This document shows, in pieces, positions 491 through 5,590 of a DNA stretch of 64,000 bases. How positions within the stretch are numbered: position 1 is the stretch's first letter; the number at the start of each line of letters is the position of its first letter. The translations under genes and the position numbers were made by a program. Origin of the DNA: Bacillota bacterium (lineage in GTDB: Bacteria; Bacillota; Dehalobacteriia; UBA4068; UBA4997); NCBI GenBank assembly GCA_017397935.1, contig JAFQHN010000024.1, forward strand, positions 1-64,000. The letters are read 5' to 3'. The notes under the pieces are model-generated. The model did not search any database, was not told the DNA's origin, and worked only from the letters and a program-made list of their open reading frames with translations.

Positions 491-2206
491 ATGAAAGCCA
501 GTAAAATGTTAGCTCCTACTCTGAGAGAGGTACCCGCCGATGCGGAAATCAGCAGCCATAAGCTGATGCTGCGCGCCGGTATGATGCGTAAAGTTGCGTC
601 CGGTGTGTATACTTATCTGCCTCTGGCGTGGCGCTCTATCAAGAAGATTGAAAATATTATCCGTGAGGAGATGGATAACAAAGGCGGCCAGGAATTGCTG
701 ATGCCGGCGGTACAGCCTGCCGAAATTTGGCAGGAAAGCGGCCGCTGGGGTGTGTACGGTGCCGAGCTTTGGCGTGTAAAGGACCGTAACGGCCGTGATT
801 TCTGCCTTGGCCCCACCCATGAGGAATTGATCAGCGTGACCTTCCGCAACGATGTGCGCTCTTATAAGCAGCTGCCGCAGATGCTGTACCAAATCCAGAC
901 CAAATACCGTGACGAGCGCCGTCCGCGCTTTGGTTTGATGCGCAGCCGTGAGTTTATTATGAAGGATTTGTATTCCTTTGACGCTGATGAGGCCGGTTTG
1001 TCGGTAAGCTATGATATGATGTATGATGCGTACTCCCGCGTGTTCAGCCGCTGCGGTTTGGACTTCCGCCCGGTTGAGGCAGACAGCGGTGCCATCGGCG
1101 GCAAGGGCAGCCATGAGTTTATGGCGCTGGCCGAGGCTGGCGAGAGTGCTATTCTCTATTGCGACACCTGCGATTATGCGGCTACCGATGAGATTGCGGG
1201 CCGTGATCCCCTGCCGGTGGCAGCCGAGGAAATGCTGGCTATCGAGAAGGTGGACACCCCCAACTGCGCTTCGGTGGAGGAGGTTGCGGCCTTCTTGAAT
1301 GTGCCGACCAACCGCATTGTAAAGACCATGTATTACAAGGCTGACGAGGAGTTGGTGGTTGTGCTTATCCGCGGCGACCGCACCATCAATGAAATCAAAT
1401 TGCAGGGCCTGCTGGGCTGCAACGAACTGATGCTGGCCGATAACGCCGACATTGAGCAGGGCGGCAGCAAGGTTGGTTATCTGGGGCCGATCGGCATTGA
1501 GGGCGTGAAGATTTATGCTGATGCCGAGGTGCCGCTGATGTATAATGTTATCGTGGGGGCCAATGACGGTGAGCGCCACCTGCTGAATGTAAACTATCAG
1601 CGCGGTGACTTTAAGATTGACCAAGTGGCTGATTTGCGTTATCTGGAAGAAGGCGAGCAGTGCCCGCATTGTCATGGGCATTTGAAGATGGCCCGCGGTA
1701 TTGAGGTTGGCCAGATCTTTAAGCTGCACACCAAGTACAGCGAGAGCCTGCACGTTTATTATACCGGTGAGGACGGCGTGGAGCGCCCGGTGGTAATGGG
1801 CTGCTACGGCATTGGTGTGGGTCGCACCCTGGCTGCGGTTATCGAGCAGAGCCATGATGATGACGGCATTATCTGGCCGATGGCGGTGGCACCGTATCAG
1901 GTGGTGGTTATCCCGGTTAATGACCGTGAGGAGGAGCTGGTGCAGGCCGCCGGCAAGGTTTACGATGAGCTGACCGCTGCCGGTATCGAGGTTGTTTTGG
2001 ATGACCGCGGTGAGCGTGCCGGTGTTAAGTTTAAGGATGCCGATTTGATCGGCTATCCCGTGCGCGTTACTGTTGGCGCCAAATCTCTGGCACGCGGTAA
2101 TGTAGAGGTTAAGATCCGCAAGACCGGTGAGATGCTGGAAGTGCCGGTGGCCGAGATTGCAGGCTGGATCAGCGATTATGTTAAGGCGGAAATGGCTGCA
2201 AAATAA
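491..2206 (+). CDS. proS: Prolyl-tRNA synthetase
   Basis: This 571-residue class II aminoacyl-tRNA synthetase charges tRNA-Pro in the cytoplasm. It has the bacterial layout: an N-terminal catalytic part with motif 2 (about residues 135-165, YRDERRPRFGLMRSREF), an inserted editing domain (roughly 220-400) of the YbaK/INS type, motif 3 (GIGVGRTLAA) and a C-terminal anticodon-binding domain (PYQVVVIPVN onward). Length matches bacterial-type ProRS (565-575). The ATG at 491 follows AGGAGG (477-482) with 8-nt spacing; an in-frame upstream codon at 473 would overlap that site and is rejected. The gene is followed 33 bp later by the prenyl synthase pair, so it may head a short operon. Confidence 0.95.
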   Translation: MKASKMLAPTLREVPADAEISSHKLMLRAGMMRKVASGVYTYLPLAWRSIKKIENIIREEMDNKGGQELLMPAVQPAEIWQESGRWGVYGAELWRVKDRNGRDFCLGPTHEELISVTFRNDVRSYKQLPQMLYQIQTKYRDERRPRFGLMRSREFIMKDLYSFDADEAGLSVSYDMMYDAYSRVFSRCGLDFRPVEADSGAIGGKGSHEFMALAEAGESAILYCDTCDYAATDEIAGRDPLPVAAEEMLAIEKVDTPNCASVEEVAAFLNVPTNRIVKTMYYKADEELVVVLIRGDRTINEIKLQGLLGCNELMLADNADIEQGGSKVGYLGPIGIEGVKIYADAEVPLMYNVIVGANDGERHLLNVNYQRGDFKIDQVADLRYLEEGEQCPHCHGHLKMARGIEVGQIFKLHTKYSESLHVYYTGEDGVERPVVMGCYGIGVGRTLAAVIEQSHDDDGIIWPMAVAPYQVVVIPVNDREEELVQAAGKVYDELTAAGIEVVLDDRGERAGVKFKDADLIGYPVRVTVGAKSLARGNVEVKIRKTGEMLEVPVAEIAGWISDYVKAEMAAK

Positions 2207-2239
2207 GGCGGCTGAATATAAATTTGGGGTGATGATGGG

Positions 2240-3025
2240 ATGATGATGGAGAAACCGGCAGTAAAAGCTGATAAAACTGAATTGAACAGCGGCTTGCTGG
2301 CGGTCCGCTCTGCCCTGACACGGGAGTATCTGCCGGTGGCTGCGCGTTTGCCTGAGAATTTGCAGCCTGAAGCGAGTTGGCCGGAAAGGGAAGTGCTGCC
2401 GACTTTGGTGCTGCTGCCGACTTTGGGTAAGGCCGATTTGCGTCCCCGTGCCGAAAAACTGGCCTTGGCCATGGAACTTTGTTATCTGGCCGGGCGGGTG
2501 CATGATCTGGCGGCGGCTGCGGCCGATGCTGACGGTATGTACGGGCGTTCCATCCTCACCGGGGATTATTTGTATGCGGCAGGCGCTGTGCAGCTGGCCA
2601 ACGCCGGGTATGATAATCGGCTGGGCAAGGTGGGGCGGATACTCTCCCGCCGGGCCGAGGCGCGGTTGGTAAGTGAGCGCTGGAATGAGCGTGCTTATGT
2701 GCCGGAGAGCGAGAAGATCGCCAATCTGGCCAAGGATACTGCCGAGGGATTTTCTCTGGCGGCAAGCATGGCGGCTGATTTGGCGGGGTTATCTGCCGAA
2801 CAGCAGCAGGCGTATACCGAATTTGGCTTTTATCTGGGCGTTTTGCAGGGTATAAGCCTGAACGGCTACCGCAAGGGGGCGGCGGCTGATGAGGCGCTGG
2901 TGTATTGCCGGCGGGCGCTGTTACATATACCTGAATGTGCGGCTTTGGCCGAGGAAATGCTGCTGAGTAAATTGGCGGAGGAAAAGACGGTATCTGTGCC
3001 GAAAGCGGCGTATAACAGGGCGTAA
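2240..3025 (+). CDS. Degenerate polyprenyl synthase subunit (HepS-like)
   Basis: A 261-residue all-alpha protein. Its middle (about 75-150) resembles the core of trans-isoprenyl diphosphate synthases: a helix with the LAGRVHDLAAAAAD stretch where active enzymes carry DDxxD, and ILTGDYLYAAGAVQLA, which resembles the LxGDFLLARA region. Neither aspartate-rich motif is intact. It lies directly before a catalytically complete synthase (30 bp gap), as the non-catalytic HepS subunit accompanies HepT in Bacillus. I infer a regulatory or chain-length subunit of a heteromeric enzyme. Three consecutive ATG codons (2240, 2243, 2246) make the exact start uncertain. Confidence 0.6.
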   Translation: MMMEKPAVKADKTELNSGLLAVRSALTREYLPVAARLPENLQPEASWPEREVLPTLVLLPTLGKADLRPRAEKLALAMELCYLAGRVHDLAAAAADADGMYGRSILTGDYLYAAGAVQLANAGYDNRLGKVGRILSRRAEARLVSERWNERAYVPESEKIANLAKDTAEGFSLAASMAADLAGLSAEQQQAYTEFGFYLGVLQGISLNGYRKGAAADEALVYCRRALLHIPECAALAEEMLLSKLAEEKTVSVPKAAYNRA

Positions 3026-3055
3026 AATTGGTTGCTGATTTGGAGGTTGGCTTGG

Positions 3056-4078
3056 GTGGCAGTTGATATTACACAAAAAATAACGGCCAAAAACCGGGCC
3101 AAGGCCGCCAAATGGCAGCAGCTGGTGCAGCGGGAACTGAGTTGCTTGGAGGATTATCTGAAAAACTCACTTAACTCGGAGGACACGCTGATACAAACGG
3201 CGGCGCTGGGCTTGATTGAGGCTGGCGGCAAGCGGATTCGCCCGGCCTTTGCGTATCTGGCAGGGCGGATTTGGGGAGCAGACCGTGACAGCCTGCTGCC
3301 TTTGCTGGCCGCGTTAGAGCTTATCCACACCGGAAGCCTGGTGCATGATGATATTATCGACAAGGCCACTCTGCGCCGCGGCAAACCGACGGTGAGCTAT
3401 GTGCATGGGCCGGCGGCTGCGCTGTATGTGGGCGATTTTTTGATCGGTCGGGCGCTGGAACTGGTATCTGTTTATCAAAATGAGCGCGTGGATGTGAGCC
3501 TGAACCGCACAGTGCTGCAAATGTGTCTGGGTGAGTTGAAGCAGGAGAAGGATTTTTTCCGCTTATCACAAACACCGCACGATTATTTTGGCCGCATACG
3601 CCGAAAAACCGCGCTGCTTTTTGCTGGCAGCTGTGAGTGCGGGGCGGCGCTGGCCGGTGCGACGGATGAGCAGGTAAATGCGCTATGGCGCTTCGGTTAT
3701 AATCTGGGGTTGGCTTTTCAGATCATTGATGACCTGCTGGATTTGCTGGCCGATGAGGAAACGATTGGCAAGCCGGCGGGCAACGATTTGCGGCAGGGTA
3801 ACTTATCCTTGCCGGTGATTTTGGCGCTGCGTGAGGCCGAGGGAGAGCAGTTGGCTGCCGCTATCCGTGGTATTGAGCAGGGAGAAGCTGAGGCTTTGCC
3901 GAGGGCGCTGGAACTGGTGCGGAAATCTGCGGGGCCGGAAATGGCTGCTAAGACGGCGCGGAGATTTTTGGATAAGGCGGCCGCTGATTTGCAGCCCTTG
4001 CCGAACTGCCGTGAAAAACAGGCGCTTAGCTCTGCGATGCAGGATTTTATTGCGCAAATTGACAGGCTGATGCGGTAA
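3056..4078 (+). CDS. hepT: Polyprenyl (heptaprenyl-type) diphosphate synthase, catalytic subunit
   Basis: This 340-residue trans-isoprenyl diphosphate synthase elongates allylic diphosphates with IPP to make long-chain prenyl diphosphates, for menaquinone or a similar quinone. Both Asp-rich motifs are present: LVHDDIIDKATLRRGKPT at about residue 100 (FARM) and QIIDDLLDL at about 223 (SARM), plus the GGKRIRPAF substrate-binding segment near residue 58. The GTG at 3056 is chosen because GGAGG (3042-3046) sits 9 nt ahead; an in-frame codon at 3032 has no such site. It follows the degenerate paralogue and probably pairs with it. Product length cannot be read with confidence, so the symbol is provisional. 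Confidence 0.85.
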   Translation: MAVDITQKITAKNRAKAAKWQQLVQRELSCLEDYLKNSLNSEDTLIQTAALGLIEAGGKRIRPAFAYLAGRIWGADRDSLLPLLAALELIHTGSLVHDDIIDKATLRRGKPTVSYVHGPAAALYVGDFLIGRALELVSVYQNERVDVSLNRTVLQMCLGELKQEKDFFRLSQTPHDYFGRIRRKTALLFAGSCECGAALAGATDEQVNALWRFGYNLGLAFQIIDDLLDLLADEETIGKPAGNDLRQGNLSLPVILALREAEGEQLAAAIRGIEQGEAEALPRALELVRKSAGPEMAAKTARRFLDKAAADLQPLPNCREKQALSSAMQDFIAQIDRLMR

Positions 4079-4080
4079 AA

Positions 4081-4117
4081 ACGCCTGCTTGACAAGTTGT
4101 TGCAGGCGTGATAAAAT
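4081..4117 (+). promoter_or_regulatory. Sigma-A promoter embedded in an inverted repeat
   Basis: TTGACA (4089-4094), a 17-bp spacer and TAAAAT (4112-4117) make a near-consensus promoter for the riboswitch transcript. Arms ACGCCTGC (4081-4088) and GCAGGCGT (4102-4109) form a perfect 8-bp inverted repeat flanking and overlapping the -35 element. No T-run follows, so it is not a terminator of hepT. An operator is the more likely reading. Confidence 0.7.
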
Positions 4118-4121
4118 GTTG

Positions 4122-4330
4122 GTGAAAAATTGAATACCGATATATAGAGGAAAGTGGTGAAAGTCCACACACAGAAACGGTACTGTAAGCACGAGGCCGC
4201 TCCGAAGCAGCATAAGTTGTTGATTTTTTAATCGCCACTCGGATTTTATCCGGGGAAGGTAGGAGAGGGACGCAGGGAAGAACCCATAGTGTAAGTCAGT
4301 ATATTCTATATGTTGGGTTGGGGTACTCTG
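4122..4330 (+). promoter_or_regulatory. Cobalamin riboswitch
   Basis: The conserved elements appear in order: GGTGAAAGTCC (about 4152-4163), an ACGGTACTGTAA segment, CGCCACTCGGA...TCCGGGGAAGG (about 4231-4259), and AAGTCAGTA near 4292. These match the adenosylcobalamin aptamer (B12 box and core). The aptamer lies immediately downstream of a strong promoter and is followed by an intrinsic terminator at 4369-4413, so control is probably by transcription termination when cobalamin is bound. The regulated gene would be the DUF2292 ORF at 4473. The 5' and 3' edges are approximate. Confidence 0.85.
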
Positions 4331-4368
4331 CTTTCCGGAGATCCTTTGGGAGTGCATAAAGAACGTTT

Positions 4369-4413
4369 GCACCGAAAATATGGTTGTTTTGGCCATGCTT
4401 TCGGTGCTTTTTT
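4369..4413 (+). terminator. Riboswitch expression-platform terminator
   Basis: GCACCGAAA (4369-4377) pairs perfectly with TTTCGGTGC (4399-4407), with an inner ATGG/CCAT extension, followed by TTTTTT. It lies between the cobalamin aptamer and the DUF2292 start, as expected for a B12-controlled terminator. Confidence 0.85.
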
Positions 4414-4472
4414 ATTGCCGTAGCCTGAGGTATTTGATTTTTGACGAAAATATTGGCCGAGGTGGTGATTTG

Positions 4473-4643
4473 ATGGAGGAATTGGCTAAGCAAGAGCAGA
4501 TTGATTTGGAAGTTATGAATGAGTGCGAGGAGGAAATTGTGCGGGCAATACGGCAGCTGGATTATGGTGAGGTTAATGTGATGATCAGAAACGGCAAGCC
4601 GGTGATGATGAAGGTAATAAAATCCCAAAAGCTGGAAAAATGA
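4473..4643 (+). CDS. DUF2292 (YezD-like) microprotein
   Basis: A 56-residue acidic N-terminal helix is followed by IRQLDYGEVNVMIRNGKPVMMKVIKSQK, which matches the small DUF2292/YezD family of Bacillota (role unknown). The ATG at 4473 has GAGGTGG about 7 nt upstream. A longer frame opening at 4380 would start inside the terminator hairpin and is rejected. It is the only gene between the cobalamin riboswitch and the next structured region, so it is the apparent riboswitch target. This suggests a role when cobalamin is scarce. There are no membrane segments or cysteines. Confidence 0.75.
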   Translation: MEELAKQEQIDLEVMNECEEEIVRAIRQLDYGEVNVMIRNGKPVMMKVIKSQKLEK

Positions 4644-4658
4644 TTTGTTGCTGCTGAA

Positions 4659-4777
4659 TACGGTAGAGAAATATCAAAAATTTTGTAGGCTGTGTGGTTA
4701 AGACTACCGTAATAACCGAAGCTCAGTAAAATATGCCCTGTGGGTGGGTGTGTTTTATTGGGCTTTTTTATTTGGCC
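4659..4777 (+). ncRNA. Pseudoknot-like structured RNA with weak terminator
   Basis: TACGGTAG (4659-4666) and CTACCGTA (4704-4711) form a perfect 8-bp stem. GGTTA inside its loop (4696-4700) can pair with TAACC just outside (4713-4717), an H-type pseudoknot topology. Further on, GCCC...GGGC then TTTTTT (about 4735-4777) looks like a terminator, with an alternative TAAAATA/TGTTTTA pairing. It may be only the 3' end of the DUF2292 transcript or a regulatory RNA. I recognise no known class. Confidence 0.35.
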
Positions 4778-4804
4778 GTAATATTTTTATAGGGAGTATA
4801 GGTT

Positions 4805-4891
4805 ATGAACGGAGTAAATTGTAGTAATATTACGCTGAGACGCATTAGGGCCCGGTTGATTATCATAGCCATATTTTTTGCTTGCTTATAG
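4805..4891 (+). CDS. Possible 28-residue hydrophobic peptide
   Basis: An ATG at 4805 has GGGAG 8 nt upstream and opens a 28-codon frame. It has a short polar start, a basic RRIRAR patch and a hydrophobic LIIIAIFFACL tail. The shape is that of a tiny single-span membrane or signal-like peptide. Its stop codon lies 2 bp after the -35 element of the next gene's promoter. It resembles no family I know; the Shine-Dalgarno and the amphipathic layout are the only support. Confidence 0.3.
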   Translation: MNGVNCSNITLRRIRARLIIIAIFFACL

Positions 4892-4910
4892 ACACAAGTT
4901 TTTATATAAT
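4882..4910 (+). promoter_or_regulatory. Promoter of the carbonic anhydrase-like gene
   Basis: TTGCTT (4882-4887) and TATAAT (4905-4910) have a 17-bp spacer. They lie about 100 bp upstream of the start codon at 5009. Confidence 0.65.
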
Positions 4911-5008
4911 ATGATGTAGAAAATAATGGCAACAAGGGCAGACTGTTTTTATATAACAACGGTATCTGCTGTCAAAATTTACAGAAAATTTAACAGGAGG
5001 AATTTATT

Positions 5009-5590
5009 ATGACGATTGAAAAATATATGGAGCATAGCCCCAAAATTGATGAGAAAACTTATGTTTCCGACTCTGCGGTGATCATGGGCATGGTGGAGAT
5101 CGGCGAGGGCAGCAGCGTTTGGCCCAATGTTACCATGCGCGGCGATGTGAACTACATCAAGATGGGCAAGTACAGTAATGTGCAGGATAACTCGGTGGTA
5201 CACGTGGCGGCTCAGCCTTGCCCCACCATCATCGGTGATTATGTGACTATTGGTCACAGCGCCACTGTGCACGCCTGCATTATCGAGGATAACTGTTTGA
5301 TCGGTATGGGCTCGGTAATTCTGGATGGCGCAATTATCGGCCACGGCTCGATTATCGGTGCCGGTTCGGTGGTGCCTCCGGGCAAGGTTATCCCGCCGTT
5401 CTCCAAGGTTATGGGCATCCCCGGCAAGGTGGTGGCCGAGCTGACACCTGAGGATGAGCAGGGCACTATCCGCCATTCCCGCCGCTACTGGAATCTGGCC
5501 ACCCGCTATATCCCCGACGGCGAAAAATACCGTGTGGATGAGCCGGAAATTGAAATGGTTACCGCAGAAAAATATCAGAAATATCTTTAA
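5009..5590 (+). CDS. Gamma-carbonic anhydrase family hexapeptide-repeat protein
   Basis: This 193-residue protein is made largely of left-handed beta-helix hexapeptide repeats, for example IGEGSSVWPNV, IGDYVTIGH and IIGAGSVVPPGKVI. Three histidines in the gamma-CA zinc arrangement are visible: VVHVAAQ (about residue 70), TIGHSA (about 87) and TVHAC (about 92). It fits the YrbE/PaaY/CaiE-like clade, usually a trimeric metalloprotein that may hydrate CO2; catalysis in such homologues is often unproven. The ATG at 5009 follows AGGAGG (about 4997). The gene is monocistronic: its own promoter is upstream and recA has a separate one. Confidence 0.85.
   Translation: MTIEKYMEHSPKIDEKTYVSDSAVIMGMVEIGEGSSVWPNVTMRGDVNYIKMGKYSNVQDNSVVHVAAQPCPTIIGDYVTIGHSATVHACIIEDNCLIGMGSVILDGAIIGHGSIIGAGSVVPPGKVIPPFSKVMGIPGKVVAELTPEDEQGTIRHSRRYWNLATRYIPDGEKYRVDEPEIEMVTAEKYQKYL

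Follow-up and report, generated by a model that had tools for sequence, protein, structure and literature searches.

LicT and SacY are protein-dependent antiterminators that work with RAT hairpins. ANTAR proteins are also protein-dependent antiterminators (PMC8934654). The targets of cobalamin riboswitches fall into four functional classes in a survey of these elements (PMC3766115). In one study, yezD is among the genes given as unknown, and survival in deep starvation was no lower after its deletion (PMC6385201); the literature searched for DUF2292 and yezD mentions them in lists only. The window, a 64,000-nucleotide stretch of DNA from an anaerobic bacterium, contains a DUF2292 unit behind a divergent cobalamin riboswitch, and it is probable that DUF2292/YezD proteins are small RNA-binding attenuation regulators that act at an RNA element, referred to here as the box.

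The unit occupies positions 4089-4765 of the forward strand, in the order promoter, cobalamin-riboswitch homologue, intrinsic terminator, 56-codon DUF2292 gene and second terminator, which bears out the original prediction of an aptamer core, a terminator and a single 56-codon gene behind a promoter. The promoter-like site (4089-4117; TTGACA-17-TAAAAT with an extended -10 TG) agrees with the consensus at 11 of 12 positions and is a consensus match only; scan matches by themselves are no evidence. The aptamer (4126-4326) is followed by the intrinsic terminator of the expression platform (4369-4413), whose arms at 4369-4383 and 4393-4407 form a hairpin of -20.8 kcal/mol ahead of a T-run (T6 / TTTTTTAT). 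A transcription terminator platform is also described in Dehalobacter restrictus (PMC4285132). A Shine-Dalgarno sequence read from the DNA, AGGTGG (4460-4465), lies 7 nt before the ATG of the gene (4473-4643), whose 56-residue product passes PF10055 (26.8 bits, cut-off 22) and is the only DUF2292 protein in its genome. The second intrinsic terminator (4719-4765, -27.6 kcal/mol) precedes the next gene, which begins at 5009, so DUF2292 is the only cis target, again as predicted, and the unit is monocistronic. A riboswitch with DUF2292 as its sole target falls outside the four functional classes of the survey (PMC3766115). Past the second terminator, a 28-codon ORF (4806-4892, forward strand) has a ribosome-binding site and a signal-peptide-like sequence (RRIRARLIIIAIFFACL) and could be the stub of a lost secreted protein. 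At curated thresholds, Rfam matches the window at one place only, a 6S RNA (RF00013; 32524-32704, forward strand, 90.6 bits).

The full window scan at curated thresholds thus gave no cobalamin match. In a focused cmscan, RF00174 aligned with the aptamer from model position 1 to 189 and scored 25.0 bits (E 1.6e-4), short of the gathering score of 31.5 bits. A genome-wide RF00174 search returned the aptamer at E 1.5e-4 as the weakest of five, the other four scoring 72-96 bits. The core blocks GGTGAAAGTCC, TACTGTAA, GCCACTC, GGGGAAGG and AGTCAG are recognizable, and the leader folds better than its shuffles (MFE z -2.7). Comparison with 44 other aptamers found each odd base of the window aptamer singly in canonical aptamers, for example the U after CAG in the second copy at locus L038, and AUAU in a copy from the same genome and at L040. 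The aptamer therefore resembles RF00174 in its end-to-end alignment and core blocks but differs in its score and in lacking approximately 20 nt before the GGAAA block. Since a full-length alignment at E 1.5e-4 with core blocks is nonetheless below threshold, the aptamer, judged by sequence, is a divergent homologue, neither a chance match nor a certified member; the prediction that Infernal would score it as cobalamin held for homology and not for the gathering score.

The link between riboswitch and gene recurs elsewhere, as the original prediction anticipated. Five KSIKL-type DUF2292 proteins served as queries in a search of public genomes that relied solely on peptide patterns, with no riboswitch bait, and yielded 35 KSIKL-type loci, nearly all in Bacillota. 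Placement by Rfam scans and coordinates put a cobalamin riboswitch on the same strand within 450 nt upstream in 24 of the 35 and within 2.6 kb in 3 more. Among 101 unselected relatives, all nine members of the KSIKL subfamily scoring at least 71 bits lie in riboswitch-headed gene runs, six directly behind the riboswitch and three further along. Placement behind B12 riboswitches sets the window copy and the KSIKL members apart from DUF2292/YezD (PF10055) at large: no cobalamin riboswitch was found within approximately 1.5 kb of the sampled non-KSIKL loci, whose neighbors, named by reading the sequences, include O-acetylhomoserine sulfhydrylase, cysK, sulfate transport and NifX/NifH-like genes. 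The B12 link thus stands for the KSIKL subfamily but not for DUF2292 as such.

Downstream of KSIKL genes are found S-layer (SLH) and DUF4430 surface proteins and, by reading, apparent cobalt or corrinoid transport genes; KSIKL DUF2292 is usually first in operons for surface proteins and corrinoid/cobalt transporters. Transcobalamins have DUF4430 as their C-terminal domain (PMC4350170). Such a transcobalamin-type protein is encoded downstream in several KSIKL loci, whereas no such gene is found 3' of DUF2292 in the window genome. A terminator-like hairpin precedes the gene in 22 of 25 riboswitch-DUF2292 units and follows it in 21 of 25. The gene thus usually ends at a terminator of its own, which makes a solitary DUF2292 gene less unusual than it first looks. 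At L060 (5645-6587), a riboswitch, a DUF2292 gene and a box come before a further promoter-like site and cobalamin riboswitch, in what looks like another single-gene unit. At L028 (9340-12820), L041 (approximately 2000-5460) and L059 (approximately 1990-5460), the riboswitch-DUF2292 units have immediately upstream of them genes that, by reading, are NifH-like and NifD-like. Those at L028 are themselves directly behind a cobalamin riboswitch, and genes of this type possibly encode a B12-regulated nitrogenase-like reductase.

The window protein scores 38.2 bits with an HMM of the KSIKL subfamily and 36.6 bits with a general DUF2292 HMM. Members of the subfamily score 66-85 bits and end in KSIKL, whereas the window protein ends in KSQKLEK; the trait of a cobalamin riboswitch directly upstream is present at its locus. 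By these sequence scores it is an outlier, nearest to the KSIKL subfamily but intermediate. The predicted fold is alpha-beta-beta, a helix and two strands (pLDDT 75). AlphaFold models (pLDDT 75 and 79) gave no significant fold match in the PDB, and no solved structure of a sequence relative was found. MazE/AbrB/SpoVT swapped-hairpin proteins recurred among the matches at E 2.7-10, too weak to be taken as fold relatives. Tandem two-domain DUF2292 proteins exist and are compatible with a dimer.

A conserved stretch, CTGACCAGAAAACTGGAGG and its variants, was read 3' of DUF2292 stop codons, fused to the second terminator. This box is approximately 29 nt long and folds into P1 (approximately 5 bp), an internal loop of 5' UGA and 3' AG, P2 (3-4 bp) and an A-rich loop of 4-5 nt. 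It is found 3' of KSIKL DUF2292 stop codons, including those of loci that have no riboswitch, and 3' of sulfur-type DUF2292 genes; copies lie as much as approximately 100 nt beyond the stop codon, or in different operons. Among 39 sequences, all nine pairs are altered on both sides and 89.8% of cells are paired. The covariation score is 0.606 versus 0.294 for shuffled alignments, and none of 500 shuffles scored as high, counts that are not probabilities since the sequences are related. Smaller sequence sets showed covariation too, and sliding the pairing partners abolishes it. In 48 of 51 boxes, at least 3 nt of the P1 3' strand lie within the terminator 5' arm; because the strand is common to both, the box and terminator structures are mutually exclusive. 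The box has no match in Rfam 15 at gathering and, at five loci, none covering it at E up to 10. It is an uncatalogued RNA element with no Rfam 15 family, and the box sequences tried were not found in the paper texts searched. At L029 (12901), L030 (7387), L031 (1072), L039 (5523) and L044 (4635), a box lies approximately 90-130 nt upstream of a cobalamin riboswitch rather than after a DUF2292 gene, which gives the impression that the two switches can swap places.

One set of 398 genomes of the phylum was searched with both the box covariance model R2 and PF10055, at a cut-off of E 1e-4. Both were found in 41 genomes, the box only in 6, DUF2292 only in 26 and neither in 325; leaving out the genomes used to train the model gives 34, 6, 26 and 325 (Fisher p 1.6e-26, phylogeny ignored). 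Genomes with both span approximately 24 families by the labels of the tool. DUF2292 occurs without a box at this cut-off in 26 of 67 genomes, that of the window included. Some genomes with only a box at a looser cut-off are profile misses; G019, for example, has a KSIKL protein. Among the 87 boxes listed from non-training genomes, 17 are found immediately 3' of a DUF2292 gene, and 46 are either separated from every listed DUF2292 gene by more than 10 kb or on other contigs. Genes that follow boxes, named from NCBIfam with some matches below family cut-offs, encode sulfate adenylyltransferase, cysteine synthase (cysK), SsuA-like binding proteins, a YeiH-type exporter, NifH-like proteins and an MtaA-like methyltransferase, and inspection found further sulfur and methyltransferase genes. 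At L180 (2849-2877, contig 1 of G091), a box precedes an apparent CobW-type GTPase gene, and approximately 220 bp away an opposite-strand box precedes corrinoid methyltransferase-type genes.

The unit, its riboswitch link, the covarying box, the terminator overlap and the co-occurrence across genomes were all computed. From these we infer that DUF2292 binds RNA and antiterminates; it is the overlap of base pairs that suggests antitermination rather than termination. DUF2292 would bind the box and favor P1/P2 over the terminator, and with P1/P2 held in place termination would be prevented and the downstream genes transcribed. The boxes of a sulfur branch would act on the sulfate, sulfonate and cysteine genes that they precede. 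Within the KSIKL branch, DUF2292 would be made behind a cobalamin riboswitch, with a box and terminator usually separating it from the genes of corrinoid-capturing surface proteins, which would constitute a two-step switch, the riboswitch first and the protein at the box second. The window unit would be a single gene, DUF2292, that corrinoids repress through a diverged cobalamin riboswitch and its terminator platform. The broader proposal, that DUF2292/YezD is a new family of approximately 50-residue antiterminators serving sulfur and corrinoid-acquisition regulons through one hairpin-terminator element, and that in one branch DUF2292 is made only upon riboswitch-sensed corrinoid shortage and so forms a cascade, has on these sequence comparisons slightly better than an even chance of being correct.

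The covarying hairpin and its exclusion of the terminator, as befits an attenuator, were found across the boxes; a box at the window locus was not. The top scores of the covariance models were 6.5 bits within 4000-5200 and 4.4 bits within 4640-4800, and a candidate picked by eye at 4700-4730 (CTACCGTAATAACCGAAGCTC) fails both models. Genome searches with models R1 and R2, together with searches of selected stretches, found no box in the window genome at the cut-offs used. A 3-bp box model, looking in expected places, gave a weak candidate at G000:C26:56427-56450 (14.2 bits, E 0.4 in 166 kb). It reads GGAC-CCA-CGG-AAGAA-CCG-AC-GTCC, and the abutting terminator contains GTCC and so uses the P1 3' strand. 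The candidate lies between a cobalamin riboswitch and 132-aa ORF on one side and a secreted-protein gene on the other, and the 132-aa ORF is homologous to an ORF in the riboswitch-DUF2292-box operon of an order-level relative, L057 (37.5% over 56 aa, E 7e-10). A hairpin of this kind was found at none of nine riboswitch loci of same-genus or same-family relatives, in which no DUF2292 was found. The C26 hairpin appears to be a degenerate box and would be the most likely trans target of the solitary DUF2292 gene. On contig 13 of the same genome (L148, 2226-3929), a protein with CbiK and CbiX domains and a lipoprotein-like start is encoded behind a canonical cobalamin riboswitch.

The window gene may therefore have a target in trans; alternatively, the unit may be a remnant undergoing drift. 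It is possible, if doubtful, that a riboswitch-DUF2292-surface-protein operon arrived or moved here and lost its box and structural gene, leaving an aptamer and a protein that drift. The low scores of the aptamer (25 bits, where the other four in the genome reach 72-96) and of the protein (38 bits, where the subfamily has 66-85) fit such decay, as does the missing box. In seven same-genus genomes the flanking genes, encoding a polyprenyl synthetase and a gamma-carbonic-anhydrase-like protein, are adjacent and the insert is absent; its GC content is 32-47%, compared to 52-62% in those genes. No close copy of the 581-nt unit or its protein was found in approximately 60 relatives and plasmids searched, and no direct repeats beyond a 12-mer flank the insert. 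A 76% match to the gene start on contig 25 lies inside another coding sequence and is unrelated. Decay is harder to reconcile with an intact ORF, a good Shine-Dalgarno sequence, a near-consensus promoter and two strong terminators. The odd bases of the aptamer are also known from canonical aptamers, the C26 candidate offers a trans box, and L060 too looks monocistronic.

It is unlikely that the box is instead a metabolite-sensing riboswitch or the site of another factor, with DUF2292 merely a co-regulated member of the regulon. Boxes do stand ahead of many transport and metabolism genes, in the manner of riboswitches, and in the six box-only genomes DUF2292 was not detected at E 1e-4. Yet an RNA of approximately 29 nt with an A-rich loop and a small internal loop would be more like a protein-binding antiterminator, its presence tracks DUF2292 across unrelated loci, and boxes lie 3' of DUF2292 genes in both sulfur and B12 settings.

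Co-regulation with corrinoid capture and sulfur uptake genes would also suit a DUF2292 protein that itself handles corrinoids or sulfur intermediates, as a chaperone or transporter accessory needed whenever the operon is on, but this is quite improbable: the KSIKL subfamily has no invariant Cys or His, and the linked covarying hairpin and the distant boxes would be left unexplained. The role in corrinoid handling raised in the original prediction is thus not favored: a covarying attenuator hairpin that is tightly linked to DUF2292, and stands before sulfur genes too, indicates a regulator. That the ORF, short and between two terminators at most loci, is a leader peptide whose translation rather than product controls the following terminator is very improbable, given its conservation as a protein family, the placement of boxes in different operons or as much as approximately 100 nt beyond the stop, and the tandem proteins.

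With DUF2292 as an attenuation regulator, a widespread protein family without a function would gain a concrete, testable one, with a predicted RNA target and a gene list. The boxes form a candidate class of protein-linked attenuators missing from Rfam 15. A B12 riboswitch may here have a further regulator as its output, instead of a transporter or an enzyme, and corrinoid capture may be tied to sulfur assimilation via one regulatory module.

Finally, the box system resembles LicT/SacY-RAT and ANTAR systems in having a small hairpin that overlaps an intrinsic terminator, in the many copies before co-functional genes and in the regulator gene found in the same genome. The RNA differs from the elements of those systems in its P1/P2 helices, UGA/AG internal loop, A-rich loop and lack of an Rfam match. 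The presumed regulator, at approximately 50 aa, is much smaller than theirs and is neither a PTS nor an ANTAR protein.
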